DNA from: Candidatus Krumholzibacteriia bacterium
GTDB taxonomy: Bacteria; Krumholzibacteriota; Krumholzibacteriia; JAJRXK01
Direction of reading: 5' to 3'
DNA: 64,000 nucleotides
NCBI GenBank assembly: GCA_035268685.1
Contig: DATFKK010000180.1
Coordinates: 1 to 64,000 of the forward strand
Below, piece by piece: positions 12,960 through 34,410 of the stretch. Position 1 is the first letter of the stretch. The number at the start of each line of letters is the position of its first letter. The notes under the pieces are model-generated. The model had not been told where the DNA came from and made no database searches. It was given only the letters and a program-made list of their open reading frames with translations. Made by a program: the position numbers and the translations under genes.

Positions 12960-13706
12960 TCAGTGCTGCAGCAGGAGCTGCACCATCATCATGGTCATGA
13001 AGGCCAGGGTGAGGGTGGTCGCGGCCGCACTCGTCGACAGGTGCTCGAAGGAATCGGGGACGAGCTCCGAGAACACCATCCAGATCATGGCGCCGGCCGC
13101 GATGCCCATGCCGACCGGCAGGAAGGGCTGGAAGGCCGTCACGAAGAGGAAGGCCGGGATCGCCATGAGCGGCTGGGGCAGACTCGACACGATGCTCCAG
13201 CCCGCGGCCTTCCACACCGAGGTCCCACGCGGGATCAGCACCAGGCTGATGGCCAGACCCTCGGGGATGTTGTGCACGGCGATCGCCACCGTGATCAACA
13301 GTCCGAGTTCCGAGCTCCCCCCGAACGAGACGCCAACGCCGATGCCCTCGGCGAAGGAATGGGCCGTCATCACGCCCAGGATCAACAGCGCCTTGCGTGC
13401 ATCGGCTCCGCTGAGGTCGGCCACGTCGGGGGAGTCGCGGCGTTCGATCCAGCGATCGGCGAGGACGACCAGGATCAGTCCGAGCGCCATGCCCGCCAGG
13501 ACCAGCCACGCGTTCCGCTGCTCGCCCTCGGAGACCAGACCGTGACTCGCCGACATCATCAGTCCGCCGGCCACGGCGCTGAACAACCCGAGCCAGCGTC
13601 GCGAGAAGTCCTGTGTGAAGGCGAAGGGCACCGCACCCAGCCCCGTGGCGAGCGCGGTGATCAGCGCTGCCACGAAGATCGTCGTCAGAGTGACCTCGAA
13701 GTCCAC
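12960..13706 (-). CDS. ZIP-family divalent metal transporter
   Basis: About 248 residues with about eight hydrophobic segments. The two ZIP signature helices are present: HSFAEGIGVGVSFG and HNIPEGLAISLVL, which carry the His/Glu residues forming the binuclear metal site in this family (ZupT/ZIP, zinc or iron import across the inner membrane). A short Asp/Arg-rich loop (DRWIERRDSPD) lies between helices 3 and 4. The GTG at 13706 is used; no strong ribosome site is visible. It is upstream of the phosphodiesterase/EEP fusion, which needs divalent metal, but 129 bases separate them and a functional link is only a guess. Confidence 0.85.
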   Translation of the reverse strand: MDFEVTLTTIFVAALITALATGLGAVPFAFTQDFSRRWLGLFSAVAGGLMMSASHGLVSEGEQRNAWLVLAGMALGLILVVLADRWIERRDSPDVADLSGADARKALLILGVMTAHSFAEGIGVGVSFGGSSELGLLITVAIAVHNIPEGLAISLVLIPRGTSVWKAAGWSIVSSLPQPLMAIPAFLFVTAFQPFLPVGMGIAAGAMIWMVFSELVPDSFEHLSTSAAATTLTLAFMTMMMVQLLLQH

Positions 13707-13851
13707 GGGGCACCGGCGGGAAGGATGGAACGAGCGTTCGACGCGTCCCAGGATGCGCCCTCGGTCCGGTCGCGCCCTTCGGGATCGACCCGCCGCGGGC
13801 GTTCCGGCTCCGCCCCATGCCGCGGCGGTACCCTGCTCGCCGTGGAGACCG

Positions 13852-15714
13852 TCAGCGACCGGTGGTGGCCACCCGACGCTCGAGTGCCCCGCTCGCCGCC
13901 CAGTCGAGAACGCCCTTGACGACCTTCTCGGCGTCGCGCTGACGGAGCTTCACGTCGCGCAGCGCCCAGGCGTGGGCGGCGTGCGCCAGGTTGCGGATCT
14001 CGACGAGCACCGCGAGGTCCGTCGGAGCGTGGCGGAGGACGTAGTAGTCGTAGCCACGAGCGCGCGCACCGGCTCCGAAGGCGGGCAGCACGTCACGCGC
14101 GAAGTCGCGCGAGACCCGGTCGCGCCGAGCGTGGAACACGGTGACCGCTTCGGGCGATCGGGGGCTGTTGTCGGCGTGCAGGCTGATCAGCAGCGTACGG
14201 TTCGAGCCGGCCGTCGCGGCCAGCTCGCGGATCGTGCGGACACGGTTGCGGAGGCCGTGGTTTCCCCCGCGTGGCCACGACGACGCGGAGTTGCGCCGGT
14301 TGATCCGTGCGCTGTTGTACACCTCGTTCTGTTCGTTCACGAAGGTGGCCGTGGCGGGGTCGTTCGAGCGCAGGAGGTGGTTCGGGCTCAACAACGAGAG
14401 GTGGACGTCGGCGCCGTGCAGGCGGAGCAGCACGGCCACCCGCAACGAGATGTCGTAGACGTACTCGTCCTCCACGACGTGCACCGTGCGGCTGTCGTCG
14501 ATCCGCGTGGGAACGATCGTGCCGGGGTCCCGTCCCCCGTGACCCGGATCGAGGATCACGGTCAGGCCCTCGAGCGAACGACTCGACCGGCCGAGCGTCT
14601 CGATCCGCGCGTCGAAGGAATCCCACAGTCGGCGCGCCTGCTGGTAGGTGGCGCGCGGACCGTGCGCCGAGCCCTCGCGGTGGTGACGGCTGCGCTGCGC
14701 GCCGGCCCGCGGCTCGGAGTACAGGTACGGTCCGTTGTCCGCCGCGATCACCGGCACGGCGCGACTCCGGGGCACGAGATCGTTCCAGGGGATCTCGGCC
14801 GGGGACAGCAGACCCAGCCCCGTGTCGTCGTCGCCGAGCAGAGGGCGCACGCGCAGACGCTGGCCCGGATGGATGACCGAGCTGCGCAGGGTGTTGGCGG
14901 AGCGCAGTTCGCGCAGACTCATCTGGTGGAGCTGGGCGATCTCGCCCAGCGTGTCGCCACGCCGCACGACATGGGTGGCCCAGCGCGGCGCCTGCGAGCC
15001 GGACTCTCGGATCTTCAGCTCCTGACCCGGGTGGATGCGGTCGCCACGGAGACCGTTCAGTGTCCTGAGCTCGGCCAGGCTCATGCCGTAGGCGCGCGCG
15101 ATCTCCCAGAGGGCATCACCGCGCTCGACCACGTGCACGCTCGTCGCCACCGAACGCAGACGCAGCTTCTGGCCGGGATGGATCCGTTCGCCTACGACCC
15201 CGTTGAGGTCGCGGAGTATCGAGACGGACACACCGTAGCGGCGCGCGATACCGATCAGGGTGTCGCCACGACGGACCACGTGCACGGCTTCGTCCGCTCG
15301 CGAGGGCTGGAGGTTCAGTCGCTGACCGGGGTGGATCCGGCTTCCCGGCAGAGCGTTGATCCGGCGCAGGAAGGACACCGACACGCCGTGACGCTCGGCG
15401 ATCCCGCTCAGTGTGTCGCCGCGGCGCACGACGTGGATCTCACCACCCCGTCGCGGAATCCGGAGTTCCTGTCCGGGGAGGATCCGACTGCCACGCAGGT
15501 CGTTCCAATGGCGGAGGTCGGACACCGACACCCTGTGACGCTGCGCGATCCAGCTCAGGTTCTCGCCCGACCTCACCCGGTGGACGACGACATCGGGGTC
15601 TTCCTGCGCCAGGAGTTCCGGCGCCGTCAGACAGAGCATGGCGATGCCGAGGAGGGCACGGACGAGGTGTCCGTGGACGTTGGGACCTGGCGACACGACG
15701 GCACGCGCGGGCAT
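13852..15714 (-). CDS. N-acetylmuramoyl-L-alanine amidase with five LysM repeats
   Basis: About 620 residues. After an export signal (LVRALLGIAMLCLT, cleavage near LLAQ) come five LysM repeats, roughly residues 45-280. Each has the form HVVRRGDTL...IA..., an LN/IN turn, and RIHPGQ. A linker leads to a C-terminal Amidase_3 domain (about 370-610) with the zinc motif ILDPGHGGRDPG, a Glu-bearing helix (VVEDEYVYDIS), LLISLHADN and the catalytic-type VEIRNLAH near the end. It would bind peptidoglycan and cleave the stem peptide from muramic acid, as in daughter-cell separation. ATG 15714 is preferred because GAGG lies six bases ahead. Confidence 0.85.
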   Translation of the reverse strand: MPARAVVSPGPNVHGHLVRALLGIAMLCLTAPELLAQEDPDVVVHRVRSGENLSWIAQRHRVSVSDLRHWNDLRGSRILPGQELRIPRRGGEIHVVRRGDTLSGIAERHGVSVSFLRRINALPGSRIHPGQRLNLQPSRADEAVHVVRRGDTLIGIARRYGVSVSILRDLNGVVGERIHPGQKLRLRSVATSVHVVERGDALWEIARAYGMSLAELRTLNGLRGDRIHPGQELKIRESGSQAPRWATHVVRRGDTLGEIAQLHQMSLRELRSANTLRSSVIHPGQRLRVRPLLGDDDTGLGLLSPAEIPWNDLVPRSRAVPVIAADNGPYLYSEPRAGAQRSRHHREGSAHGPRATYQQARRLWDSFDARIETLGRSSRSLEGLTVILDPGHGGRDPGTIVPTRIDDSRTVHVVEDEYVYDISLRVAVLLRLHGADVHLSLLSPNHLLRSNDPATATFVNEQNEVYNSARINRRNSASSWPRGGNHGLRNRVRTIRELAATAGSNRTLLISLHADNSPRSPEAVTVFHARRDRVSRDFARDVLPAFGAGARARGYDYYVLRHAPTDLAVLVEIRNLAHAAHAWALRDVKLRQRDAEKVVKGVLDWAASGALERRVATTGR

Positions 15715-15932
15715 TCGAGTCCTCACGGGCTCGAGGGCGGCGGGGTGCGGGTCGGCTTCCAGGGGTGGGCGCGGGGACGCCCGGCGGCATTATGCGAAGG
15801 GTGGCGCCGGTTGTAAAGCAGCGGATCACGCTGTCGACGGGGCGGAGGCAGGCCTGGCCGACGCCGGGTGCGCAGCCCTACGATGGGGATGCCGTCCGGA
15901 CGGGCGGTGATTCCCCGGACCAGGAGGCCGTT

Positions 15933-17327
15933 TTGAGCTCGCAGATCCGCACCGAGGCCTGGGAACTGCTCGAGAGCGCCGTCGTGGCACATCGGAGCGA
16001 GCCGGTGGGTTCGGTCGCCGCCCGGGACGACCAGCCGGAAACGATCAATTATCACCATGTGTTCACCAGGGATTTCGCCGTCTGTGCGCTTGCACATCTG
16101 CTCCGCGGCGAGTCGGACATCGTACGCAACTTCCTCGACCTGCTCGTCGATCTCCAGAACACCGAGAAGCAGATGGACTGCTTCGAGCCCGGCGAGGGCC
16201 TCATGCCGGCGAGCTTCGACGTCACGACCGAGGACGGGCTCGAGGTGATCCGGCCCGACTTCGGGCAGAGCGCGATCGGGCGGGTCGCGCCGGTCGACTC
16301 GGGTTTCTGGTGGCTGCTGGTGGCCAACGCCTACGTGCGGTCGACGGGTGACCGCTCGTTGATCGAGACCGACGGATTCCAACGGGCGATCCGCTACGTC
16401 CTCGATCTGGCCCTGACGCAGCGCTACGAGATGTCGCCCACCCTTCTCGTGCCCGACGGCTCGTTCATGATCGACCGCCGCATGGGTGTGTACGGTCACC
16501 CCGTCGACGTGCAGAGCCTCTTCCACGCCGCCGTACGCGCCGCCGGTGAACTCCTCGTTCCCGATCAGCAGGGCTCGACCTACCGTGACGCCGCCGACGC
16601 CCGGGCCCGCCACCTGGCCTACCACCTGCGGACCTACTACTGGCTGGACCTGCGCCGGATCAACGAGATCCACCGCTACGGCCTCGACGAATTCGGGGCG
16701 ACCGCGGTGAACAAGTTCAACATCCACCCCGATACCATTCCCGACTGGCTGTTCGACTGGATTCCCCGCGAGGGCGGATATTTCGCCGGCAACCTCGGAC
16801 CGGGCCGGATCGACTTCCGGGTCTTCGGTCAGGGCAACCTGTTGGCGGTGGTCACCGGGCTGGCCACCGAAGAGCAGGGTCAGGCCATTCTCGACCTCTG
16901 GGAGGCCCGCTGGGACGACCTGGTGGGCGAGATGCCGCTGAAGATCTGCTTCCCGGCGGTGGAAGGTCGCGACTGGCGGATCCTCACCGGCTCCGATCCG
17001 AAGAACACCCCGTGGTCGTACCACAACGCCGGGAGCTGGCCGGTGCTCATCTGGCTGCTGGCCGCCGCAGCCCTGCGCGGTGGACGCCGGGCCCTGGCCG
17101 AGCGGGCCGTCGAGCTCGCCGAGCAGCGGCTGGCGTCCGACCGTTGGCCCGAGTACTACGACGGCCGCCGCGGCCGTTTCGTGGGGCGCCGTGCCCGCCA
17201 CCTCCAGACGTGGTCGGCGGGGGGGTACCTGGTCGCTCGTCAGTTGCTCGACGCCCCCGACGGACTCGACCTCCTGGACTTCGACCGCGAGGTGGGCGAG
17301 AGCTCGTGCGAGCCGGACGAGGGTTGA
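15933..17327 (+). CDS. GH100 alkaline/neutral invertase
   Basis: About 464 residues, a typical size for bacterial GH100 enzymes. Near-invariant motifs of the plant and cyanobacterial family are present: DFAVCALAHLLRGESDIVRN, then DCFEPGEGLMPASFDV, RMGVYGHPVDVQSLF, DPKNTPWSYHNAGSWPVL, WPEYYDGRRGRFVGRRAR and QTWSAGGYLVA. The enzyme hydrolyses sucrose to glucose and fructose in the cytoplasm (no signal peptide). A TTG start at 15933 is chosen because AGGAGG ends five to six bases upstream; no ATG in frame gives the conserved N-terminus. It leads a plus-strand group with the ATP-grasp and CocE-type genes. Confidence 0.85.
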   Translation: MSSQIRTEAWELLESAVVAHRSEPVGSVAARDDQPETINYHHVFTRDFAVCALAHLLRGESDIVRNFLDLLVDLQNTEKQMDCFEPGEGLMPASFDVTTEDGLEVIRPDFGQSAIGRVAPVDSGFWWLLVANAYVRSTGDRSLIETDGFQRAIRYVLDLALTQRYEMSPTLLVPDGSFMIDRRMGVYGHPVDVQSLFHAAVRAAGELLVPDQQGSTYRDAADARARHLAYHLRTYYWLDLRRINEIHRYGLDEFGATAVNKFNIHPDTIPDWLFDWIPREGGYFAGNLGPGRIDFRVFGQGNLLAVVTGLATEEQGQAILDLWEARWDDLVGEMPLKICFPAVEGRDWRILTGSDPKNTPWSYHNAGSWPVLIWLLAAAALRGGRRALAERAVELAEQRLASDRWPEYYDGRRGRFVGRRARHLQTWSAGGYLVARQLLDAPDGLDLLDFDREVGESSCEPDEG

Positions 17328-17480
17328 GGGAGCGACCCCCGTCGCACGAGCGCGGTCGAGCGACATCCGGGTTTTCCCCCCGAGCTCTCATGGACGGCCC
17401 CATCGTCGGCCTCCGGTGTACGGGTCTACCGTGATCGACGAACAGGATTCGTTCCGATCGATCACGGTGAGGCCCGTGTC

Positions 17481-18767
17481 ATGAGCAAGAACGTATTCGT
17501 CGTCGGGCTCGACGATTTCAATCGCAGTAAGCTCGAGGCGGTCCGCGACCGTGAGTCCTTCGAGTACCACGAGCTGCTGCCGCTGAACGCCGTACAGGGC
17601 GTGGACCGGTTTCCGGTCGGCGACTGGTTGGCCGACGCCAGGGCCAGACTGGACGGCTTCCCGCGTAGCATCGACGCGATCATCGGCTTCTGGGACTTCC
17701 CGGTGAGTCTCATGGTGCCGATTCTGGAAACCGAGTACGACACGCCCGGATGCCCCCTGGAGGCCGTGGTCCGCTGCGAGCACAAGTACTGGAGCCGCCT
17801 GAACCAGCAAGAGGTCGCGCCCGACGCGGTCCCGAGCTTCCAGGCTCTCGATCCCTTCGACGACGACGTCGTCGACCGCGTGGAGCTCGCGTACCCGTTC
17901 TGGATCAAGCCGGTCAAGGCCTTCGCTTCGCAGCTCGGCTTCCGTGTGGACGACCAGGAAGACCTGAGACGAGCCATCGAGAAGATCCGCCGCGGCATCG
18001 GGCGATTCGCCGAACCCTTCGACGAGATCCTGGGTCACGTAGACCTTCCCGACGAGGTCGCCCACGTCACCGCGTCCTGGTGCGTCGCCGAGGAGATCCT
18101 GACCGGGACCCAACACACCATCGAGGGCTATGTCCACGACGGAGAGGTCCATGTCCACGGTGTGATCGACTCCTTGAACTATCCGGACTCGCATTCGTTC
18201 TTCCGGTACCAGTATCCCTCGCGGCTTCCACGCAGTGTGCAGGAGCGGGCCGGAAAGCTCGTCCGCACCGTTCTCCACCGTGTCGGCTTCGAGGAGTCGC
18301 CGTTCAACATCGAGATCTTCCACGACGAGGACAGCGACCGAATGTCGTTGCTCGAGATGAACACCAGGATCTCCCAGTCGCACAGTGACCTCTTCGAGAA
18401 GGTCGACGGATTCTCGAACCACGACGTCCTGGTCCATCTGGCCACGGGCGAGGCCCCGGAACCGATGGCCCGTGAGGGTGAGTTCGCCTGTGCATCCAAG
18501 TGCCAGTTGCGCGCCTTCGCGGGCGACACGATCACACGGGTTCCCGACGAAGACGACATTGCGCGTGTCCGGGAAGAGCTGCCGGGCACGATCGTCGTCG
18601 TTCAGTGTCATGAAGGCCAGCGGCTGGAGGACCTTCGGGATCAGGACTCCTACAGCTACCGACTGGCGGTCGTGTACCTCGGTGCCGACAGCGAGGACGA
18701 GCTGCTCCGTCGCTGGGACCGATGTCGCGAACTGCTCGACTTCGAGGTCGACGACCAACGGGTGTGA
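17481..18767 (+). CDS. ATP-grasp domain protein
   Basis: About 428 residues, ATP-grasp fold. The nucleotide-binding lysine region reads PFWIKPVKAFASQLG, followed by a central segment with CVAEEILTGTQHTIEGYV and the metal-binding SLLEMNTRISQSHSDLF (Glu/Asn pair). Members couple ATP hydrolysis to carboxylate-amine or carboxylate-thiol ligation. The substrate is not readable, and the architecture is closest to stand-alone carbamoyl-phosphate-synthase-like ligases rather than to a named enzyme. ATG with GAGG nine bases upstream. Its stop TGA (18765-18767) overlaps the ATG of the CocE-type hydrolase, indicating translational coupling. No adjacent carrier-protein or peptide-synthetase gene is present. 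Confidence 0.75.
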   Translation: MSKNVFVVGLDDFNRSKLEAVRDRESFEYHELLPLNAVQGVDRFPVGDWLADARARLDGFPRSIDAIIGFWDFPVSLMVPILETEYDTPGCPLEAVVRCEHKYWSRLNQQEVAPDAVPSFQALDPFDDDVVDRVELAYPFWIKPVKAFASQLGFRVDDQEDLRRAIEKIRRGIGRFAEPFDEILGHVDLPDEVAHVTASWCVAEEILTGTQHTIEGYVHDGEVHVHGVIDSLNYPDSHSFFRYQYPSRLPRSVQERAGKLVRTVLHRVGFEESPFNIEIFHDEDSDRMSLLEMNTRISQSHSDLFEKVDGFSNHDVLVHLATGEAPEPMAREGEFACASKCQLRAFAGDTITRVPDEDDIARVREELPGTIVVVQCHEGQRLEDLRDQDSYSYRLAVVYLGADSEDELLRRWDRCRELLDFEVDDQRV

Positions 18768-20806
18768 TGGACGTGTCTGCGAGACGGAGGATCGATACCG
18801 AACTGCCGCACGCGGTGCGGTGTGAGGAGACCGTCTGGATCACGATGTCCGACGGCATCCGGTTGGCGGCCCGCCTGTGGATTCCGGTGGGTGCGGAGGA
18901 GGATCCGGTTCCTGCGATCCTCGAGTACATTCCGTACCGAAGACGCGACCGCACCCGTGTACGCGACAGCATGAACCACGCCTGGACGGCGGGGCACGGC
19001 TACGCGTGCCTGCGGGTCGACATGCGGGGGAGCGGTGACTCGGAAGGCTTGCTCACCGACGAATACCTGCAGCAGGAGCTCGACGACGGCGTCGAGGTGA
19101 TCCGATGGATCGCCGATCAACCCTGGTGCGACGGCACGGTCGGCATGGTCGGGATCTCCTGGGGAGGATTCAACGGTCTGCAGATCGCGGCCCTGCAGCC
19201 CCCCGAGTTGAAGGCCGTGATCAGCGTGTGTTCGACCGACGACCGTTACGCGGACGATGTCCACTACATGGGGGGATGCCTCCTCGGCGACAACCTCTCG
19301 TGGGCGTCGATCATGTTCCATCGCAACTCCATGCCGCCCGATCCGGCGGTCGTGGGGGAAGACTGGCGCGACCTGTGGTACCGGCGCCTCGACGGCTCGG
19401 GACTCTGGCTCGAGACCTGGTTGCGGCACCAGAGACGTGATCACTACTGGAAGCACGGCTCCGTGTGCGAGGACCCGGCGCGGATCCGATGTCCGGTGCT
19501 CGCCGTGAGTGGGTGGGCCGACGGCTACTCGAATGCGGTGTTCCGTCTGGTGGAGAGCCTCGATGCCCCGGCCCACGGCCTGATCGGCCCGTGGAGTCAT
19601 CGATATCCTCACGACGGCGTGCCCGGTCCGGCGATCGGATTCCTGCAGGAATCCCTGCGGTGGTGGGACCACTGGCTCAAGGGCGAGGATCGAGGTCTCG
19701 ACGACGAACCACGTCTCCGAGCCTGGATGCAGGACAGCGTCTCGCCGAGTGCGCACTACGAGGAGCGCCCGGGGCGTTGGGTGGCCGAGCCGGGATGGCC
19801 TTCACCGCGCATCGAAGAGCGGACCTGGAAGCTCTCTCCACTCCGCCTCGAATCGGCCGACGCAGACGTCCCCGAGACGCAGTTCTACGTCTGTTCGCCG
19901 CTCCGTCTCGGTCTGTACGCGGGCAAGTGGTGCAGTTATGCCGGCCCCCCGGACCTTCCCGGCGACCAGCGGGAGGAGGACGGCGGCGCCCTGGTCTTCG
20001 ACAGCGAACCGCTCGACGAGGCCGTCGAGATCCTGGGTGCGCCCACGGTCGAACTCGAGCTGAGTGCCGATCGCCCGGTGGCCATGGTGGCCGTACGTCT
20101 GTCGGACGTACGGTCCGACCACCGCGCCAATCGTGTCACCTATGGCCTGCTCAATCTGACCCATCGCGATGGTCACGAGCACCCCGAGCCGCTGGAGCCG
20201 GGGCGGCGCTACCGCGTCCGGGTCGACATGAACCACGTCGCCCACACGTTTCCCGTCGGACACCGGCTGCGCCTTGCGGTGTCGACCTCGTACTGGCCGC
20301 TCGCGTGGACACCTCCGGCCGTCGCCGAACTCACCGTGACGGGTGGCCGGAGCACCATGACACTTCCGGTCCGCCCCCCTCGCACCGAGGACGCCGAGCT
20401 CCGTGCCTTCGAGCCACCGGCGACGGCGCCGGGCACACCGACACGGCGCATCCATCCCCGGCAGCACGGCTGGACGGTGCACCGTGACCTGGCGACCGAT
20501 CGCGCGACGCTCGAAGTGCTCAAGGACGAGGGCCTGGTACGCCTCGAGGACATCGAGCTGGATTTCGAGGAGAGCTCGCGCGAGTGGTACACGGTCGAGG
20601 ACGACCGGGCCGACACGGCGCGGGGGGAGGCCGATTGGCGGTACCGTTTGCGGCGCGACGGCTGGGAGGTCAGGGCCCGCACCCGGACGGTGCTCACCTC
20701 CGACGCCGAGTTCTTCCATCTGCACGCCCAGCTCGATGCCTGGGAGGGCGAACGTCGGGTCTACTCCCGGAACTGGACCCGCCGGATTCCGCGGGACCTC
20801 GTGTGA
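18767..20806 (+). CDS. CocE/NonD (S15-type) alpha/beta hydrolase
   Basis: About 679 residues. The hydrolase core shows the oxyanion-side motif DMRGSGDSEG, the nucleophile in GISWGGF (Ser130), an Asp in SGWADGY (about residue 254) and a His in GPWSHRYPHDG (about 283). The C-terminal half is a beta-rich jelly-roll of the PepX_C type. The family includes cocaine esterase, glutaryl acylases and X-prolyl dipeptidyl peptidases, so it hydrolyses esters or amides. No signal peptide, so cytoplasmic. Its ATG overlaps the ATP-grasp stop codon (TGATG), which suggests the two proteins are made in step and act on related compounds. Confidence 0.85.
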   Translation: MDVSARRRIDTELPHAVRCEETVWITMSDGIRLAARLWIPVGAEEDPVPAILEYIPYRRRDRTRVRDSMNHAWTAGHGYACLRVDMRGSGDSEGLLTDEYLQQELDDGVEVIRWIADQPWCDGTVGMVGISWGGFNGLQIAALQPPELKAVISVCSTDDRYADDVHYMGGCLLGDNLSWASIMFHRNSMPPDPAVVGEDWRDLWYRRLDGSGLWLETWLRHQRRDHYWKHGSVCEDPARIRCPVLAVSGWADGYSNAVFRLVESLDAPAHGLIGPWSHRYPHDGVPGPAIGFLQESLRWWDHWLKGEDRGLDDEPRLRAWMQDSVSPSAHYEERPGRWVAEPGWPSPRIEERTWKLSPLRLESADADVPETQFYVCSPLRLGLYAGKWCSYAGPPDLPGDQREEDGGALVFDSEPLDEAVEILGAPTVELELSADRPVAMVAVRLSDVRSDHRANRVTYGLLNLTHRDGHEHPEPLEPGRRYRVRVDMNHVAHTFPVGHRLRLAVSTSYWPLAWTPPAVAELTVTGGRSTMTLPVRPPRTEDAELRAFEPPATAPGTPTRRIHPRQHGWTVHRDLATDRATLEVLKDEGLVRLEDIELDFEESSREWYTVEDDRADTARGEADWRYRLRRDGWEVRARTRTVLTSDAEFFHLHAQLDAWEGERRVYSRNWTRRIPRDLV

Positions 20807-20843
20807 GGCCGGCCGGCTCGGAGACACCGGGGCACGCGCCCGG

Positions 20844-20879
20844 CCCGCCTCCGGACGAAGTCTTCCGTCGGGAGGCGGG
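20844..20879. terminator. hairpin between convergent genes
   Basis: CCCGCCTCC at 20844-20852 pairs with GGAGGCGGG at 20871-20879, and the inner GAC/GTC and GAAG/CTTC bases continue the stem with one mismatch. It lies between the convergent stops at 20806 and 20896 and may end transcription from both sides. No T-run. Confidence 0.5.
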
Positions 20880-20895
20880 CGAGGGGCGCTCCTGA

Positions 20896-23487
20896 CTACT
20901 TCAGGAGGACGGTGCGGAGGGTCTCGTTCCGATCCGGGGTGACCATACGCACGAGGTAGACGCCACTGGCGACGGTCCGACCGGCGTCGTCGGTCCCGTT
21001 CCACCGCACTTCCACCGGTCCGGCGGGGCGGGTCCCGAGACCGAAGTCACGCACGAGGCGTCCGGACACGTCGTACACCCGCAGCTCGACGGCCGATGCA
21101 CGGTCGAGGGAGAAGCGGAAGGTCGTCTGCGGATTGAAGGGGTTCGGGGCCGCGCTCAGCGGGCGACGGGTCGTGGCGGCCACGTCGCCGGGGTTCGCGT
21201 CGCCGGAGAGACGGCCCGCCGGGAGATCCACGGTTTCCGAGGCCACGCCCACGACCTGTGCGATGCCGTCGGTGGCCACTTCCGGTAGGCGGCCTCCGGC
21301 GGAGCCGGCCTGCAGGCGGAGCTGCGCGGGGAAGGTGTCGAGCGGACGCACTCGGATCGTTGCCAGGCGCAGGGCGTCGGCACCCTTCGGGGCCCGCAGC
21401 AGACGAGGCAGACCGACGGTCAGGTTCCCGTCGCGCCCGATGTCGATCGCGCCGTCGGGGAGCCGGACCTCGACGAGGTCGAGGTTGTCCGAGGTCAAGA
21501 GCCGGGCGTCGAAGCCACGGACCCCCCTCCGGGCCACCGGTCCACGGAGTTCGAGGTACGCGGTGATCTCGCCGTTCGCGTCCGCGACGACCTCGCCGCT
21601 CCGGGAGGGGACGACGACGGCCAGTTCGCCGGCCATCGGAGCGTTGCGCGCGACGGCCGGAGCCGGGCAACTGGTGGCATAACCCTCGGCCAGGCGCCCC
21701 ACGTCGGACAGGTTGACGACACCGTCCCAGACGAAGTCGCTACGGAAGTCGTAGTCGCCGTCGAAGTCCGCGGCGAACTCGCCCAGGTCGACGAGGTCGA
21801 CGGTACCGTCGCCGTTGATGTCGGCGCTGTTCACGCGGACCTCCAGGCCGGAGCCGGCGGCGATGTAGGCGACGGTCGACAGGTCGGGGTCGTCGAGGTC
21901 GAGTCGCAGGAGCTCTCCGGGCAGGCTGGAGCCCCGGCCGAAGAGTGCTCCGGAGATGGTGGTGTTCCCGTCGGCGTCGGTGTCGGCGTCGGCGATCAGA
22001 CGGTTGCCGTCACACTGCGACCATCCGCCCTGGGTCGAGCGCACGCCGATCTTCTCGGCCGGGTAGCCGACCAGGGGCTCACCGCGCTCGTTCGTCAACC
22101 GGACCTCGATGGTCGCGTCGATCGTCGTCGCGGCTTCCCCGGGCACCCCACTCCAGACTTCGGCTTCGCTCAGTGGGCGTCCGGATCCGTCGGGGACCGA
22201 GAACAGAGCCACGGTCGACGGGGCCGACCAGCGGACCACGGCGTTCACCCGACGCTCGATGCCGACGTTCATCTCCACGGGAACCACCACGCTCGGTGTG
22301 GCGGGATCGTTGCTCGAGACGATCAGCTCGCAGTCGTAGGTTCCGCTGGCGAGCCCGGCGGCGTCCAGGGTGACCGTGACCGTGGAAGTCGTTCCGGCCG
22401 CCGTCACGCCCGTCGTCGGGTCGGCGGCCAGCCAGCCGCAGGGAGCGCGCGAGGGATCGCGATCGACGATTTCCCACTCGAGATCGGCCGCGTCCACACC
22501 GGCGAGGTTCGCGATCCCGATCTCGGCCGAGGCACTTTCGTTCTCGGCCAGGTAGTAGGTCGGGTCGGGAGCCGTGACCTCGATCTGCGCCGGCACGATC
22601 GAACCCGCGGCCACCATCTCCGGCCGGTAGGTCGCCATGAGCTGATCGGCGCGGTCGGACTGACCGGGGGTGAAGCGCACCATGCACGCGTCGTCGCTGT
22701 AGTCCATGAAGTTGTCGATCGGATCCAGGCCGGGACTCGCACAGGTGTCGCGTCCGGTGGGGCAACCGAAGGCGGGGCTGGCCTCGGCGGGTGTGTCGGC
22801 GACCTCGTCGCCGTCCCCGCAGCCACCCTGGAAGGTGTGGTACAGACCCACGAAGTGACCGACCTCGTGCGTTCCGGTGTCCCCGAGATCGTAGGGCGCC
22901 GCGCTACCGCCGGGGAGCGACGAGTACAGGCAGACCACACCGTGCAGCGGACTGTCCTCCGGATAGGAGAACGGAAGGGTGGCGTACCCCAGGATTCCGC
23001 CTCCGATGTTGCACACGTAGAAGTTCAGCGTGGTCAAGGGATCGACGGCCAGCGCGTTCTTCATCTGGACCTCGGTCGAGGACCCGGGCTGGTGCGTGGA
23101 CCACGCCGTGTTGTTCACGCGATTGATGCTGTCGAGTTCGAACTGGAAGTTCGTGGTCGAGAACCCACCGTTGAGCACCGCGAGCTGGTCCTGGATCTGC
23201 TGGTCGGTGACGTCCCACTCCCCGTTGTCGCCTCGCACCACGTGGAAGGCCACGGGAATGGTCACGATCGACTTGGCCGGAGAAGGGTCGCCGTTGACCT
23301 CCATCCAACGACGGACTTCTTCGCTCACCTGTCGCTGCTGGACGAAGTCGACGTCGGCCGTGGCGCAGCGCGGACCCTGCGTGTAGCCGCCCCCGGGCGT
23401 GCGATAGGTGACGTGATGGTCGACGTCGGCCCTCGCGGGCGCGGCGAAGACCAGGAACAGGGCGAGAACGGGCACGATGCGCCGCAT
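20896..23487 (-). CDS. secreted M43-type zinc metalloprotease with dockerin-like repeats and FlgD-like sorting domain
   Basis: About 863 residues. Signal peptide (MRRIVPVLALFLVFAAPARA), then a pappalysin-type M43 catalytic domain with HEVGHFVGLYH, a downstream FMDYSDDACM turn resembling the Met-turn, and several Cys. Middle residues form Ig-like beta domains. Near residue 600 two calcium-loop repeats (DINGDGTVDLVDLGEF and a second with NLSDVGRL) resemble type I dockerin. The C-terminus matches the FlgD-like/type IX sorting fold: VELRVYDVSGRLVRDF, WNGTDDAGR, VASGVYLVRM. It is likely exported to the cell surface to degrade protein. ATG 23487 has GAGGAG ahead; the open frame to 23634 has no support. 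Confidence 0.85.
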   Translation of the reverse strand: MRRIVPVLALFLVFAAPARADVDHHVTYRTPGGGYTQGPRCATADVDFVQQRQVSEEVRRWMEVNGDPSPAKSIVTIPVAFHVVRGDNGEWDVTDQQIQDQLAVLNGGFSTTNFQFELDSINRVNNTAWSTHQPGSSTEVQMKNALAVDPLTTLNFYVCNIGGGILGYATLPFSYPEDSPLHGVVCLYSSLPGGSAAPYDLGDTGTHEVGHFVGLYHTFQGGCGDGDEVADTPAEASPAFGCPTGRDTCASPGLDPIDNFMDYSDDACMVRFTPGQSDRADQLMATYRPEMVAAGSIVPAQIEVTAPDPTYYLAENESASAEIGIANLAGVDAADLEWEIVDRDPSRAPCGWLAADPTTGVTAAGTTSTVTVTLDAAGLASGTYDCELIVSSNDPATPSVVVPVEMNVGIERRVNAVVRWSAPSTVALFSVPDGSGRPLSEAEVWSGVPGEAATTIDATIEVRLTNERGEPLVGYPAEKIGVRSTQGGWSQCDGNRLIADADTDADGNTTISGALFGRGSSLPGELLRLDLDDPDLSTVAYIAAGSGLEVRVNSADINGDGTVDLVDLGEFAADFDGDYDFRSDFVWDGVVNLSDVGRLAEGYATSCPAPAVARNAPMAGELAVVVPSRSGEVVADANGEITAYLELRGPVARRGVRGFDARLLTSDNLDLVEVRLPDGAIDIGRDGNLTVGLPRLLRAPKGADALRLATIRVRPLDTFPAQLRLQAGSAGGRLPEVATDGIAQVVGVASETVDLPAGRLSGDANPGDVAATTRRPLSAAPNPFNPQTTFRFSLDRASAVELRVYDVSGRLVRDFGLGTRPAGPVEVRWNGTDDAGRTVASGVYLVRMVTPDRNETLRTVLLK

Positions 23488-23650
23488 GGGGACAGCTCCT
23501 CGGGGGTGATGTGGCGAGAGGGTGGCGAAGACGCCGGTGCAGTGCGGGCGAAAAGCCGGACGAAGGCACGGACGATCGACCCACGAGCGGACACGAGTTC
23601 TGCGACAGTACCAGCCGACGTGCGGGTCCGGCAAGGACGGCGCGGAGGTC

Positions 23651-24571
23651 TCAGTTCGCGTGCAGGGTCTGGATCGTGACGAGGAAGACGCCGGCCACGC
23701 CCAGGAGCAGTCCGGCGAGTCGTCGGCGCGTGGTGGGTTCGTGCAGGACGAGAACGGCCAACAGGAAGGTCCACAGCGTGGCCGTCTGGTTCAAGGCGGC
23801 CGCGATCGAGGCGGGCGCGTACTTCATCCCACCGATCCAGAAGAGCAGTGAGACGTAGGTGCCCATGATCGCGCCGGCGATCATCACGGGCCACACCGCG
23901 CGGTTGCGCAGCGCGGGCAGGGTGGCGCGCTGGTCCTTCGAGGCGAGCATGATCAGCGCGCCCACGGCCAGTCCACCGAGCAAACGCCACCAGGTCGCCC
24001 ACACCACCGGGCTCTCCTCGAGCAGGGGCTTGACCATGACGATCGAAACCCCCTGCGTGGTGGTCCCGGCGAGGCCGAAGAGGATCCCGCTGGCCCGGTG
24101 GGGCACGCGGGCCCTGGCGCCACGATCGCGCACCCAGCCCACGGCCAGGACCGCGGTGACGATCAGGAGAGCTCCGAGCGACTGCAGGAGCGTGAGGCGT
24201 TCGTCGAGGAAGATCACGCTGAGCACGATGATCACGGGGCTGTAGCTCGTGTTCACGATCGCCTGCAGGCCGGCGCCGACCCGGTTCAGACACATGAAGA
24301 AGAAGGTGTCGGACAGCCCGATCCCGATCGCGCCACTGGCCACGAGCAACCACACGTCACCGGAACTCGCACCGATCGCGGGCGTGCTCCCCAGTACGAA
24401 GAGCGTGATCGTGAACAGGACCAGCGCCAGTGAGTTCTTGAACAGGTTGAGCGCGACCGGCGGGACCGATTGGCCGGAGACACGGAAGAGGATGATCGCG
24501 ATCGACCAGCAGATCGGCGCGGCCAACGCGAAGAGCTGGCCCATGAGGGGGTTGGCGGCGGACTCGGGCAC
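23651..24571 (-). CDS. EamA/DMT-superfamily transporter
   Basis: About 306 residues with about ten hydrophobic helices arranged as two EamA repeats of five. The first repeat ends with VIFLDERLTLLQSLGALLIV and the second with VLVLHEPTTRRRLAGLLL, the usual Glu-containing loop and final helix of each repeat. These proteins export amino acids or other metabolites, or import nucleotide sugars, across the inner membrane; the substrate is unknown. GTG at 24571 with GAGGAG five bases upstream. Same strand as the metalloprotease gene downstream, separated by 163 bases that contain no further feature. Confidence 0.85.
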   Translation of the reverse strand: MPESAANPLMGQLFALAAPICWSIAIILFRVSGQSVPPVALNLFKNSLALVLFTITLFVLGSTPAIGASSGDVWLLVASGAIGIGLSDTFFFMCLNRVGAGLQAIVNTSYSPVIIVLSVIFLDERLTLLQSLGALLIVTAVLAVGWVRDRGARARVPHRASGILFGLAGTTTQGVSIVMVKPLLEESPVVWATWWRLLGGLAVGALIMLASKDQRATLPALRNRAVWPVMIAGAIMGTYVSLLFWIGGMKYAPASIAAALNQTATLWTFLLAVLVLHEPTTRRRLAGLLLGVAGVFLVTIQTLHAN

Positions 24572-24647
24572 GGAGCTCCTCGGGTACTGGAAGACCCGAG
24601 GAGTCTAGGTGTTCCGGCCGGACGCGCAACGCCCGGCGGACGCCGTT

Positions 24648-26117
24648 CTACTGCATCTCGAGGGCCGGGCGCTCGCCGTCGCCGTCGCCGTCGACATGGA
24701 GGTGGACGATGACCGCGGCTGCTTCGGTCTGACGTGCCTCGTCCTCGGCGGCGCGCCGCTCGTGCCACGAATCGACGGTACCGTGGAGATGGACCACGCC
24801 GCCGTCGACCTCGACGTCGATCTGCCGAGCGTCGACACGGGTGCTCCACCACAGTTGATCCTCGACGGCCTCATGCAGCTTCTCGTCGTCGAAGGGCTCC
24901 TCGGGCGCGTTCCTCACCTGCAGGAGGTTGTCGACGTGGGCGATTCCCGGGATGCGGCCGACCACTCGCTCGGCGCGCGCGCGTTCCCGCATCGTGGTCA
25001 CCCGTCCCATGAGATCGGCTCGCCCGTCGAGGACACGCACGCCGACGTCGTCGTCGTGCAACCAGGCGTCGTGTTCCACCGCGGTCTGCGCGGCCTGCCG
25101 CAGCGCATCGTCGTCGGGGACCTCGGGCGGGGTCACCTCGAGGAGATCGTGGATCGGTCCCGCTCCCGCGACGAGGCCGGCGTCCTCCACCGCCGCTTCT
25201 TCCTGCGCGATCGTGTCGACCTCGCCGCGGAGGGTCACGGCGCCGTTGTCGACCCGGATCTCGGGGAAGGGCGGTTGCAGGCGCGGGTCGAGCTCGTAGG
25301 CGTCCACGATCGCACTGCGGATCGCCTGGTCGCTGCGTTCGATCGGGGGCGTTCGCAGTTCGAGGTCCCGATCGACGTCGACCTCGAGGTCATCGGTCAC
25401 CACGTCGTCGACTCCGAGGACCCAGGCGAGGGCCTTGGCCCGGCGGACCTCCTCGAGACTGCCGACGACACCCTCGAGACGGACCACCGCGGCCTCGACC
25501 TCGACCTCGACGAACCGCCGACTCAGTGCAGCATCGTCGTCCAGACGGGTCCGGACGTCCGCGGCGATGTCGGCGTCGCTGCGCTCCGCGTCGGTCTCGA
25601 CCGCGATCGCGTTCACGACGGTCCGCACACCGTTCACGGTACGGGCCAGGTCCACGGCGTGGACCCGTTCGGCGTTCGAATCGACCGTCCCACGGAGCGT
25701 CACGACTCCTTCGTCGGCCTCGACCACGATCGTGCCGAAGTCGGCGACCGGGTCGTCGAGCAGCAGCCCGGCCACGTGCTGGGCGATCACGGTGTCGTCG
25801 ACGTCGGGAGGGCGGACCTCGATACGGTCGACCAGGCCGCGCACGCCGCGGACGCTCTCGGCGAGCCGCAGGGCCGCGTGATGGGCGTCCGCGCTCGACA
25901 CGGTGCCCCTGAGCTCGGCGATGCCGTCACGGACGTCGACGTCGATCTCGCCCGCCGGGATCTGGTCGTTCACGATGAACTCGGTGTACAGAGCCTGTCG
26001 GATGGCGCCGTCGTCACGGGTCGACCCCGGCGTCGCCGAAGGTGCAGCCGCGGGAGCGAGCAGGGCCGCGAGCGCGATCCCGAACGAAGTCAGCGTGATG
26101 ATGCGATGACGGAACAT
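24648..26117 (-). CDS. exported protein with six tandem BON domains
   Basis: About 489 residues. ATG 26117 has GGAGG eight bases upstream and is followed by a signal peptide (MFRHRIITLTSFGIALAALL). The rest consists of six repeats of about 65-75 residues. Each begins with (D)D..I/L, continues with VDNGAVTLRG-type strand motifs (EADEGVVTLRGTVDS in repeat 2, VDGGVVHLHGTVDS in repeat 6) and ends in a V..I..V strand, the BON pattern seen in OsmY and outer-membrane secretins. BON domains bind phospholipid or peptidoglycan-proximal surfaces. Two to three copies are usual; six is unusual. A periplasmic envelope-stress role is inferred. Strongly acidic overall. Confidence 0.8.
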   Translation of the reverse strand: MFRHRIITLTSFGIALAALLAPAAAPSATPGSTRDDGAIRQALYTEFIVNDQIPAGEIDVDVRDGIAELRGTVSSADAHHAALRLAESVRGVRGLVDRIEVRPPDVDDTVIAQHVAGLLLDDPVADFGTIVVEADEGVVTLRGTVDSNAERVHAVDLARTVNGVRTVVNAIAVETDAERSDADIAADVRTRLDDDAALSRRFVEVEVEAAVVRLEGVVGSLEEVRRAKALAWVLGVDDVVTDDLEVDVDRDLELRTPPIERSDQAIRSAIVDAYELDPRLQPPFPEIRVDNGAVTLRGEVDTIAQEEAAVEDAGLVAGAGPIHDLLEVTPPEVPDDDALRQAAQTAVEHDAWLHDDDVGVRVLDGRADLMGRVTTMRERARAERVVGRIPGIAHVDNLLQVRNAPEEPFDDEKLHEAVEDQLWWSTRVDARQIDVEVDGGVVHLHGTVDSWHERRAAEDEARQTEAAAVIVHLHVDGDGDGERPALEMQ

Positions 26118-26190
26118 GACGACGGCCTCCTCGCCCGTCTGGGGTTCGGAGCCAAGGTGCCGTAGGCGACCCCCACCCCGCATGGGGAGG

Positions 26191-26226
26191 AGCCCGGCGG
26201 CGCGCCTCGGGGATCGCCGCCGGGCT
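26191..26226. terminator. 12-bp perfect hairpin after the baeRF3-like gene
   Basis: AGCCCGGCGGCG at 26191-26202 and CGCCGCCGGGCT at 26215-26226 are exact reverse complements with a 12-base loop. The hairpin lies 18 bases beyond the stop codon of the minus-strand gene ending at 26245 and ahead of the BON gene. A smaller CCCC/GGGG stem follows on the same side. No T-run. Confidence 0.6.
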
Positions 26227-26244
26227 GCGTGTCGATCGTCTCGT

Positions 26245-27411
26245 TCAGCCGTGGAGGACGGCGGCCAGCGGACGACGGCCCGGCATGTCCGCGGTCACCG
26301 TGTAGACCACGTCGGCGCCGCGGGCCCGGCCCAGCACCGCGGCCCGGTCGACGAGGTCCTCGTCGCCGGGGTACTGGCGCTCGTGCACCTCGACGACCTG
26401 CGTCTCGGGATCCATCCGTCCCCAGCGCTCGTCGTCGATCGCGACCATGAGCGTCCGCACCCTTCCCTCCGACACGGCGGCGAGGACTTCCTCCAGCTGG
26501 TCGGCGGTCAGGCCCGTACCCGCCAGGCGTGCATGCTCGGAGCGTGCGCGCTCGAAGGGTCCGTCGAGCGTGGCTTCGACGATCGGCCACGAGCGGTCGT
26601 GCAGCTCGACGGGGTTGTGGTCGTCGGGGCTGCCCGTGACCGTTCGCTCGACGATACGTTCGGCGAGACGACTGTTCCTCCGATAGACCGAGGTCACCGC
26701 ATCGGTCCCCGCCAGCACGACGGGACCCGACTGCGAGGCGATCCTGTCCGAGACCGCGGCATCGACCTTCTGGAGGAACGACAGCAATTCCTCGGCACGG
26801 TCGTCGTCGCCCTTGCCGTGTCCGTGGAAGGTGAGTTGCCCGGGTCCTCCCTGCCGGTGGACGATGTGTCCCTGCAGGGACTCGTGTTCGACCTCGCGAC
26901 CCAGGGCTTCCTCGAGACTCGACGGGATCTCGCCCTGTGGAAGGACCTCGACGGTGTCCCGGGTGCAGCCGAGGAGACGGACGTCGTTGCGACTCAGGGT
27001 GAGGACGAAGTACTCGGCGTTCCCCGTCAGACGGGGCAGCAAGGGTTTCACGTGGTAGCGCTCGTTCACCACACAGCGTTCGGTGAGTTCGTCGGGGACC
27101 TGGATCATCTCCATGCCGTCGGGGTCGAGGAAGACCGCCAGGCCACCGTTCTGACGGTTCCAGAAGTCCTGGTCGCCCACGAGATCGCGGGCCGGCCGGA
27201 GCATGGCTTCGAACGCACGGGGCAGACCGTCGTCCTCGCAGGCACGGATCTGCCGCTCGGCTTCGTCGACCAGGTTGCCGAAACGGATCGGGTCCTGTCG
27301 GACCTGATTGCCCGTACGGTGCGTCGGCATGAACAGCGAGACGCGCCAGCGACGGGGGGGCGCGTCGCGCAGTGCACGGATGAGATCTCGGCGAGTGTCG
27401 GGAGTCGGCAT
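26245..27411 (-). CDS. baeRF3-like (archaeo-eukaryotic release-factor fold) protein
   Basis: About 388 residues, cytoplasmic. The N-terminus with FMPTHRTGNQVRQDPIRFGN and the spacing of LAVFLDPDGMEM, then YFVLTLSRNDVRLLGCTRD and a late domain containing VRTLMVAIDDERWG, fit the bacterial baeRF family 3, relatives of eRF1/Pelota domains 2 and 3. A central GRADVVYTVT-type C-terminal piece resembles the L7Ae-like domain. These proteins are suspected to act on stalled or hibernating ribosomes, but no activity is proven. ATG 27411 has CGGAGG six bases upstream; an in-frame start at 27543 would overlap the sigma-factor gene. It follows the sigma factor on the same strand. Confidence 0.7.
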   Translation of the reverse strand: MPTPDTRRDLIRALRDAPPRRWRVSLFMPTHRTGNQVRQDPIRFGNLVDEAERQIRACEDDGLPRAFEAMLRPARDLVGDQDFWNRQNGGLAVFLDPDGMEMIQVPDELTERCVVNERYHVKPLLPRLTGNAEYFVLTLSRNDVRLLGCTRDTVEVLPQGEIPSSLEEALGREVEHESLQGHIVHRQGGPGQLTFHGHGKGDDDRAEELLSFLQKVDAAVSDRIASQSGPVVLAGTDAVTSVYRRNSRLAERIVERTVTGSPDDHNPVELHDRSWPIVEATLDGPFERARSEHARLAGTGLTADQLEEVLAAVSEGRVRTLMVAIDDERWGRMDPETQVVEVHERQYPGDEDLVDRAAVLGRARGADVVYTVTADMPGRRPLAAVLHG

Positions 27412-27526
27412 GTCGCGCCTCCGGGGTTCGTGTGCATCGACCGATGCTAGGGCCCGGACGACGTGGAACCACGGGGGGAAGACCCCCAGATCGACCCCGG
27501 TGAACTCCGGTCGCTGCGACGGGCGA

Positions 27527-28101
27527 TCAGTCGGATCCGGCATCCAGTTCGCGATGGAGCCAGGCGCGGGCCTTGACCCAGTCGCGGCGAACCGTGCGGT
27601 CGGTCACGCCGAGCGCGGCGGCGGTCTCCGACTCGTTCATGCCGGCGAAGAACCGGCACTCGACCACGCGGGTCAGACGGGGGTCGAGGTCCGACAGCTT
27701 CTGCAGGGCGTCGTCGATCTCGACCACGAGGTCCGCCTGCGAATCGACGCCCAGATCCCCGGTGGCGAGCACCACGCGTTCCCGATCGCCCCCGCGCTTG
27801 CCCGATCCACGGCGTCGGGCGTGATCGACGAGAACCTGACGCATGGCCGTGGCGGCGACGGCGTAGAAGTGCACGCGGTCGTTCCATCCCGATTCCCGGC
27901 CGCGGGCCAGGCGGAGGAAGGCCTCGTGGACCAGCGCCGTCGTCTGCAGGGTGTGGCCGGTCGCCTGTCCGCGCAGGTGCCGCCGGGCGATGTGGCGGAG
28001 TTCGTCGTAGACGACCGGCATCAGGGCGTCGAGGGCGTCGGGATCTCCGCCCTGCAGGCGGTGCAGGAGGGACGTGACGTCGGGGGGCGGGGTTCGGCCG
28101 G

Positions 28102-28105
<4 letters not shown>
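27527..28105 (-). CDS. ECF-type RNA polymerase sigma factor, kinase-linked
   Basis: About 192 residues. Region 2 is visible as VYDELRHIARRHLRGQ and ALVHEAFLRLARG, and region 4 as LSDLDPRLTRVVECRFFAGMNESETAAALGVTDRTVRRDW, given here in parts: the helix-turn-helix reads ESETAAALGVTDRTVRRD. This is the ECF-like group common in Acidobacteria, Planctomycetes and Gemmatimonadota that lacks an anti-sigma neighbour and travels with Ser/Thr kinases. Its ATG overlaps the TGA of the upstream kinase gene (ATGA, 28102-28105), so the two are translationally coupled and the kinase probably controls it, perhaps by phosphorylation. That control is inference. Confidence 0.85.
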
Positions 28106-30864
<2,759 letters not shown>

Positions 30865-30870
30865 GGGTCG

Positions 30871-30876
30871 AGTATA
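30871..30876 (-). promoter_or_regulatory. TATACT -10-like box directly ahead of the kinase ATG
   Basis: On the minus strand TATACT lies six bases before the ATG at 30864, which would put the transcript start at the A of the start codon. No ribosome-binding sequence lies between. No convincing -35 hexamer is seen 17 bases upstream, so this is a pattern-based suggestion. Confidence 0.35.
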
Positions 30877-30987
30877 TCGCAATCGCTCCGGAGATCCCAC
30901 GGGACGTCCGTGTCACGAACCGGTGGGTGGGTGTAGGATAGCCGGTGCACTCCAAGGAATCGCCCTTCGATCCCGGAAAGGCCTCCC

Positions 30988-31800: not shown

Positions 31801-31858
31801 GTCTCGGCTCCCCGGCGTGGTGGGCCGTCCCCGGGATCCGCCCGCCGTGGTTCGACCT

Positions 31859-33086: not shown

Positions 33087-33221
33087 GGTCGGGACCTCCT
33101 GGACTCGATTCGGGGGAAGAGATCCGAAGATAGTGCAAGTACGGCGGGGCTGCCGTTGCCCTTGCCGCCGTCCGCCTTCCGGTGCAGCTTGGCCCCACCC
33201 CCCGGAGGAGACCTCGGAGTC

Positions 33222-34352: not shown

Positions 34353-34357
34353 ACGAA

Positions 34358-34383
34358 GGGCCCGGTGCGGACGCACCGGGCCC
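34358..34383. terminator. 12-bp perfect hairpin between tyrA and sdhB
   Basis: GGGCCCGGTGCG at 34358-34369 and CGCACCGGGCCC at 34372-34383 pair completely around a two-base centre, six bases after the tyrA stop and 27 bases before the sdhB stop on the other strand. Likely a two-way transcription end, though no T-run is present on either side. Confidence 0.65.
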
Positions 34384-34410
34384 CGATCTCGCTCGGAACC
34401 GGGGGGTCGA

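Follow-up and report, generated by a model that had tools for sequence, protein, structure and literature searches.

Do a sucrose-cleaving enzyme, an ATP-grasp ligase and a serine hydrolase, encoded one after another on the same strand, belong to one pathway? This question is raised by positions 15,933 to 20,806 of a 64,000-nucleotide stretch of DNA from Candidatus Krumholzibacteriia bacterium (contig DATFKK010000180.1), and the whole stretch is called the window hereafter. A sequence-only reading had placed three genes there and had guessed that they form a small pathway around a compatible solute or a similar conjugate. The three genes were all confirmed by Pfam and TIGR00976 matches. They encode a GH100 alkaline/neutral invertase of 464 amino acids (15933..17327, + strand; PF12899), an ATP-grasp ligase of 428 amino acids with the fold of L-amino-acid (dipeptide) ligases (17481..18767, +; PF13535 and fold match), and a CocE/NonD, S15-type serine hydrolase of 679 amino acids with an extra C-terminal beta region (18767..20806, +; PF02129, PF08530, and TIGR00976). 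In summary, I found that the ligase and the hydrolase are a conserved module across six named phyla, and that the invertase is probably not part of this pair. I put the probability at roughly 0.55 that the pair is one module by which a small amide-linked solute is made and recycled during adaptation to salt.

The stop codon TGA of the ligase gene (18765-18767) has one A in common with the ATG of the hydrolase gene (18767-18769). This is the TGATG overlap (18765..18769, +) that had been noticed before, on the same strand after the invertase gene. A TGATG overlap by itself is common in bacteria. What goes beyond chance is the lasting one-strand adjacency of the ligase and hydrolase genes and their co-occurrence in genomes, not the TGATG alone. 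A ligase scan of genome contigs gave 188 loci, of which the best 80 were kept. In 73 of these 80 loci, the hydrolase gene lies directly downstream of a ligase gene on the same strand, at a median distance of about 33 bases by projection. Among the other 7 loci, L006 and L013 stop at the contig end just after the ligase gene, and the genome of L034 has a hydrolase (66% identity) elsewhere. A second sample of 369 Gammaproteobacteria was evenly drawn and independent of the 80 loci. It has the ligase in 16 genomes, the hydrolase in 16, and both in 15, when the hydrolase is counted as full-length matches of at least 58% identity; fragments in the ligase-free genomes G276 (64%) and G117 (60%) were left out. 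Thus, a close hydrolase is present in 15/16 ligase genomes versus 1/353 ligase-free genomes (Fisher p 1.4e-24, a guide only). The ligase match of G423 is broken by two stops, and this genome has no hydrolase at the threshold. With a looser hydrolase cut-off (E <= 1e-120), 30 genomes were found, 15/16 of the ligase genomes and 15/353 of the others. Coordinates place the two genes next to each other in 12 of the 16 Gammaproteobacteria with the ligase; they are divergent in G236, and the hydrolase gene comes first in G359 and G433. The earlier claim that the ligase is coupled to an amide- or ester-cleaving enzyme is supported.

What does the ligase do? It matches PF13535 (E 3.5e-12, Pfam), and its structure model is confident (predicted local distance difference test, pLDDT, 92.9). 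The three-domain ATP-grasp fold spans the full length of the protein. The best fold match is the L-amino-acid ligase BL00235 (3vot; Z 33.2, 386 residues, 3.2 A), which is also first in the Foldseek ranking of the model. The dipeptide ligases BacD/YwfE and RizA follow with Z scores of 29.4 and 28.4, and PurK-/PurT-like enzymes with about 28-29. Since BacD and PurK-like enzymes both match at about 29, the function cannot be read from the fold by itself, and only BL00235 stands clearly apart. The residues E278, E292, N294, and R296 are identical in 32/32 aligned rows. They make up a pattern (E..E.N.R) that corresponds to the ATP-grasp metal/acyl-phosphate motif, as in BacD. Because the dipeptide-ligase fold and the invariant motif residues come together, acyl-phosphate chemistry and amide formation are likely. 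BL00235, BacD/YwfE, and RizA thus resemble the window ligase in the whole-length fold and the kept ATP-grasp residues, while they are only 13-17% identical to it and the window ligase is partnered with a hydrolase in a salt-linked module. In 31 loci, the ligase is 42-49% identical to the window copy. The window ligase has a long branch in the ligase tree, and its placement there is unsure. Tandem ligase paralogues occur in 6/80 loci (L005, L006, L017, L020, L033, and L044), and they would allow two bonds or two products. Separately, ATP-grasp relatives of about 31% identity were seen on six plasmid records. The three that were inspected (L084, L085, and L086, from Paraburkholderia, Sphingobium, and Sphingomonas) lie among copper/metal genes without the hydrolase and were set aside.

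The hydrolase matches PF02129 (E 7.8e-69) and PF08530 (E 1.1e-48), and its score against TIGR00976 is 250.8 bits, above the curated CocE/NonD cut-off of 66.3. Its structure model is only fair (pLDDT 77.6). The fold matches are cocaine esterase (Z 24.0, 476 residues, 2.8 A, over residues 13-538), alpha-amino-acid ester hydrolase (21.5), and X-Pro dipeptidyl-peptidase (19.8). Ser131, Asp252, and His278 align with the cocaine esterase triad; Asp252 and His278 are kept in 15/15 rows and Ser131 in 14/15. In 14 diverse loci, the hydrolase is 57-63% identical to the window copy, and the mean column identity is 71% (15 rows). The window hydrolase thus shares the fold and the triad with other CocE/S15 enzymes and differs from them in having a clade of its own, tight conservation, a tie to the ligase gene, and an extra region at residues of about 540-679 that lies outside all the listed fold matches. 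As a separate observation, the hydrolase of a Gemmatimonadetes metagenome-assembled genome (MAG) (L033:7560-9599) has Ala at the catalytic Ser position (GIAWGG), which indicates either an inactive enzyme or a sequence error.

Which bacteria carry the pair? By name, the 80 loci belong to Halomonadaceae (54), Salinisphaeraceae (5), Rhodovibrionaceae (4), Gemmatimonadota (4), Balneolales (3), Nitrospirota (2), and Ectothiorhodospiraceae (2, one of them labelled Nitrococcus), with one each from Natronospiraceae, Wenzhouxiangellaceae, Alcanivorax, Nitrosomonas, Planctomycetota, and Cyanobacteriota. Halomonas stenophila CECT 7744 and Chromohalobacter canadensis 85B are examples of named carrier strains. 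I take 74 of the 80 to be halophile or soda-lake taxa, namely the Halomonadaceae, Salinisphaeraceae, and Rhodovibrionaceae, ten further MAGs labelled CSSed, and one halite cyanobacterium. In the 369 Gammaproteobacteria, the ectoine synthase gene ectC is present in 9/16 ligase genomes versus 44/353 others (odds ratio 9.0, p 7e-5). A search of 33 ligase genomes, in which the loci L003, L039, and L070 were not represented, matched the ectC model in 22. Open reading frames (ORFs) sampled from the window genome have more net acidic residues than those from three relatives, with a median of 3.9 versus 2.0 per 100 (76 versus 126 ORFs, p 5e-4). This comparison leaves out G001 (8 ORFs, median -0.4), and a Nitrospirota/Nitrosomonas sample of 4 ORFs was uninformative. 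The acidity of the window genome fits a saline habitat, although it is a weak marker.

A second tie to ectoine was found in a paralogue of the ligase. In Salinisphaeraceae, a Nitrococcus MAG, and an Ectothiorhodospiraceae strain, such a paralogue has an EctC domain at its N-terminus. The fusion is present in 6 of the 33 genomes searched, three detected by profile and three more by alignment (L014:14797-16476, L027:14853-16532, L028:9596-11281, L032:9596-11278, L013:9599-11281, and L034:3691-5367); a seventh, in G111, was recognised by frame length only. In three proteins, the fused domain matches PF06339 (E 8e-39 to 7.5e-47; 133.2, 136.2, and 159.2 bits against a cut-off of 27) and PRK13290 (139.5, 138.7, and 157.5 bits against a cut-off of 128). 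Each of the 7 fusion genomes has a separate, better-scoring ectC. In the six fused domains examined, Trp21, Ser23, Arg25, Tyr52, Glu57, and Tyr84 are all kept, Phe106 is altered in 4, and His92 is replaced by Val or Ile in every one; His92 is kept in 14/14 stand-alone EctC sequences. The roles of these EctC residues, with Glu57, Tyr84, and His92 as the iron ligands, are given in PMC6344544, where the His92Ala variant of the studied enzyme is reported to have 12.7% activity left. The loss of His92 in 6/6 speaks against an ordinary ectoine synthase. Since His92 is lost and His92Ala leaves so little activity, the role of the fused domain may be ligand binding or an altered chemistry rather than ectoine synthesis. 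The module is thus like the ectoine pathway and the orphan EctC proteins in having an EctC-like domain, here fused to a ligase paralogue, and unlike them in the missing His92 and in the 11/33 genomes where the pair occurs without ectC. PMC6344544 and PMC5924519 call the function of orphan EctC proteins unclear. As a side observation, a single open frame of 306 codons in another genome (G377:C316:152-937) contains two EctC matches, one after the other.

The hydrolase also has relatives in genomes without the ligase, and their neighbours may tell what such enzymes act on. From 215 plasmid records, 12 loci with hydrolase relatives were picked, mostly from Alphaproteobacteria. A peptide-type ABC importer adjoins the hydrolase relative in 11 of them, and the twelfth, from Ancylobacter, has a second CocE gene together with an ABC system whose annotation points to glycine betaine. 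The Roseivivax permeases of the peptide type share 29-68% identity with their counterparts in the 10 other loci. The gene run of the hydrolase relative in Fuscovulum also encodes an MttB-type methyltransferase. In the gammaproteobacterial set, 14 of the 15 ligase-free genomes with a hydrolase at E <= 1e-120 were analysed. Two of these loci have a peptide importer (both on short contigs) and a third has ATPase matches only; two have a BCCT carrier, and one has solute-degrading genes. The BCCT betaine-type carrier gene lies directly upstream of the CocE-type gene in G384 and G476 (L250:7681-11249, where the genes overlap by one base, and L248:7221-10840). In G302 (L249, 5745-11140), the CocE-type gene stands beside genes for a DoeA-like ectoine hydrolase (590.5 bits, under the cut-off of 613) and TmpA/TmpB-like trimethylaminoethylphosphonate genes. 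An importer as a universal neighbour of ligase-free hydrolases was rejected, since it is seen in 12/12 plasmid loci but in few of the 14 gammaproteobacterial loci. At least two parts of such a peptide importer were found together in none of the 80 ligase loci.

Does the hydrolase of the pair form a lineage? A tree was made from 17 of the 73 hydrolase loci, the window, 29 of the 30 genomes (one fragment was dropped), and the 12 plasmids. All 33 tree hydrolases from ligase genomes fall into one supported clade of 35 rows, together with those of G314 and Roseivivax. The ligase label changes 3 times on this tree versus 19.5 times in shuffles. The Roseivivax member adjoins a dipeptide-type importer, and no importer is found next door in G314. 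The Roseivivax context would suit an organism that scavenges this same compound.

How might the module work? From the fold and the conserved residues, the ATP-grasp enzyme would activate the carboxylate of a small acid, such as an amino acid or a betaine-like compound, as an acyl phosphate, and would join it to the amine of a second small molecule. The CocE/S15 enzyme would then split this product with its Ser-Asp-His triad, which would allow the cell to reduce the pool at falling salinity and to use the components again. To judge from the gene neighbours, ligase-free bacteria may use hydrolase relatives to consume such compounds, some of them imported by peptide- or betaine-type importers. 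The analysis shows the gene content, its conservation, the linkage and co-occurrence of the genes, the fold, the fusion, and the empty site in a relative (below); the substrate class, the direction of the reactions, and the part played in osmoadaptation are what I infer here. The earlier guess of a compatible solute thus gains indirect support for the pair from the halophile names, the ectC link, and the importer neighbours, while for the trio with the invertase it is not supported.

Several points weigh against the solute module. The kept loci are the top 80 out of 188, with 54 from Halomonadaceae, so a well-sampled family is favoured; the sampled genomes are related rather than independent, so that the p values overstate the association. 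The saline habitats were assigned from the taxon names and do not come from measurements. Acidity is a poor marker, as Halomonas loci have a value of 1.6, below the relatives of the window genome, while Chromohalobacter loci have 3.9. The iron ligand is missing from every fused EctC domain examined. No ectC was matched in 11 of the 33 ligase genomes, and none in the window genome, where the run had no positive control although the same model matched in 22/33 genomes. Ectoine as the common substrate is ruled out because of these absences. The other 9 of the 14 ligase-free gammaproteobacterial loci have no recognised importer or solute gene next door, and the hydrolase could act on esters or on imported peptides unrelated to the ligase product. 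Some gene calls, in the neighbour tables and the acidity ORFs, come from my own heuristics.

A more specific version of the solute module can be put forward, although it is less likely than not. The pair would make and recycle an undescribed class of compatible solute, a ligase-made pseudo-dipeptide perhaps with a betaine- or ectoine-like half; it would have been shared horizontally among halophiles of the six named phyla and the phylum of the window genome; and the fused EctC-like domain in Salinisphaera and Ectothiorhodospiraceae would mark a module that binds ectoine or a relative.

Could the product instead be a conjugate of a compatible solute that is already known? In this special case of the solute module, glycine betaine, another betaine, or ectoine would be joined through its carboxylate, and the EctC-like domain would bind ectoine or a relative as substrate or effector. 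The fused domain keeps Trp21, Ser23, Arg25, Tyr52, and Glu57 (6/6) without His92, which fits binding better than normal catalysis, and the BCCT, betaine-ABC, MttB, DoeA-like, and TmpAB-like neighbours of hydrolase relatives point in the same direction. These neighbours, however, belong to hydrolases only 45-49% identical to that of the window, whose substrate may differ, and a third of the ligase genomes searched (11/33) lack ectC. I regard this narrower proposal as rather unlikely.

The solute module has a known counterpart in logic. The osmolyte system for N-acetylglutaminylglutamine amide (NAGGN) consists of asnO, the GNAT/ATP-grasp gene ngg, and an M42 peptidase, and so it also combines an ATP-grasp ligase and a peptidase for a dipeptide osmolyte. 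It differs in that the window ligase has no TIGR03103 match (E <= 0.01) and no GNAT domain in Pfam, and in that the window hydrolase is of the S15 type rather than M42. Neither the asparagine-synthetase-like nor the M42 peptidase family was found among the window genes scanned, which were not all of its genes. Literature searches on ATP-grasp enzymes with CocE, halophily, ectoine synthase, salinity and dipeptides, or osmolytes gave no description of the module. The enzyme families are known ones; their combination and context look new. For many bacteria, compatible solutes determine how they live with salt. The genes for the neutral dipeptide solute have been found in the years after 2005. A review of that year describes the enzymes for neutral dipeptide and derivatised amino acid solutes as unexplored at the time (PMC1224877). 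A halophile-associated ligase-hydrolase module, tied to EctC by fusion, offers a concrete enzyme for the questions of dipeptide solutes and of orphan EctC proteins. If true, the fusion reading would provide some of the unexplained EctC-like proteins with a first role that can be tested.

Is salt only a correlate of nitrogen storage? In that case, the ligase would make a nitrogen-rich peptide from Asp, Arg, or the beta-Asp-Arg of cyanophycin, and the hydrolase would release it again. The cyanophycin genes cphB and cphA lie within 10 kb of the ligase gene in 19/80 loci, in Halomonadaceae, Salinisphaeraceae, Rhodovibrionaceae, and Gemmatimonadota, and all of these except L039 also have an isoaspartyl dipeptidase gene (18/80). 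At L053:4990-9607, the cyanophycinase, cyanophycin synthetase, and isoaspartyl dipeptidase genes score above the curated family cut-offs. The cph genes run on the same strand into the ligase gene in L022, L027, L028, and L076, and are divergent from it in 14 Halomonadaceae loci. Cyanophycin genes in Chromohalobacter are mentioned in PMC5518125. On the other hand, cph genes are not near the pair in the other 61 of the 80 loci (some of them short), and none were among the window genes scanned, a partial set. In the Gammaproteobacteria, cphA is present in 3/16 ligase genomes versus 14/353 others (p 0.03), and in those 3 it does not share a contig with the ligase gene; the association with ectC is stronger. 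Thus, cyanophycin was rejected as a general partner, and a nitrogen-storage function for the pair seems unlikely, slightly more so than the conjugate of a known solute. The cyanophycin genes may rather supply amino acids to the ligase in some lineages without being part of its core function.

It was also considered whether the ligase makes a bioactive or signalling peptide that is secreted, and whether the hydrolase gives resistance to this peptide or turns it over. Dipeptide ligases of the BacD/RizA fold make antibiotics, and an Atg22-like MFS gene, whose family was tested on the L007 copy, lies near the pair in 28/80 loci. Against this, those 28 loci are all from Halomonadaceae, the module consists of two genes only, the hydrolase is strongly conserved across phyla (71%), and there is the link to ectC. 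A bioactive product is improbable, and the small amide-linked solute remains the preferred product of the pair.

The three-gene pathway for a sugar- or amino-acid-derived conjugate is very improbable: the common strand and a joint absence in a relative (below) favour it, and sucrose is itself named as a compatible solute in PMC7824335, but GH100 is found in 0/80 ligase loci, and of the 47 ligase genomes the 8 with GH100 all have it away from the ligase gene. By itself, a GH100 invertase carries out its complete reaction in one step, which also speaks against the trio. When the co-occurrence check proposed in the sequence-only reading is made across genomes, the ligase and hydrolase stay linked and the invertase drops out.

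How, then, did the invertase gene come to stand beside the pair? It encodes an ordinary family member, with 648.9 bits against PF12899 (E 4.5e-195, family positions 1-435 of 435) and E 3.2e-174 against the structure 5gor of an Anabaena-type alkaline invertase. It starts with TTG, with AGGAGG just upstream. The gap between its end and the ligase start is 153 bases, in which a scan found no terminator-like or promoter-like sites. The two terminator-like sites of that scan lie within the GH100 gene, where 1.5 are expected by chance, and the single promoter-like site lies before the GH100 gene on the opposite strand.

In a sample of 80 genomes of the phylum, GH100 and a close ligase were found only in the window genome; one other genome has a ligase relative of 33% identity. 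The flanking genes of the window encode a LysM-type cell wall amidase (13852..15726, - strand, named by eye) and an EamA transporter (23651..24571, -; PF00892). In G008, of the same genus, the homologues of the transporter (63%) and the amidase (58%) adjoin each other, with one small ORF between them by eye. At this site, GH100, the ligase, the hydrolase, and the M43 metalloprotease with a FlgD-type Ig tail (20896..23634, -; PF05572 and PF13860) are all missing. The whole G008 genome lacks the ligase and GH100, and the hydrolase was searched for at the matching site only; a partial relative (45%) of the M43 protease lies elsewhere in G008. Because the flanks lie together in G008 without any of the three genes, GH100, the ligase, and the hydrolase may have arrived in the window genome as one block. 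This empty site is the sole support for the trio besides the strand. The block was either gained in the window lineage or lost in G008, and since the ligase and GH100 are absent from other relatives too, gain is favoured, in one or more steps. Horizontal gain is thus the probable origin of the pair, and a GH100 invertase with its own, independent action on sucrose may have come in the same block.

No integration-site mark was found, as there are no Rfam matches in 13000-25000 and no transfer RNA in the window, and the G+C content of the block (0.64-0.71) is not clearly foreign. About 18.7 kb (15727-34410) separate the LysM amidase gene from the Sdh genes in the window; these are close together in two relatives, and in G007 the Sdh genes come directly before the amidase gene. 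This stretch includes genes for a six-BON-domain protein, a baeRF protein, a kinase-TPR protein, and a Bax-inhibitor protein. The six-BON protein is encoded at 24648-26183 of the window, and the Planctomycetota locus L002 has one too, at 14798-16255, downstream of its ligase-hydrolase pair.

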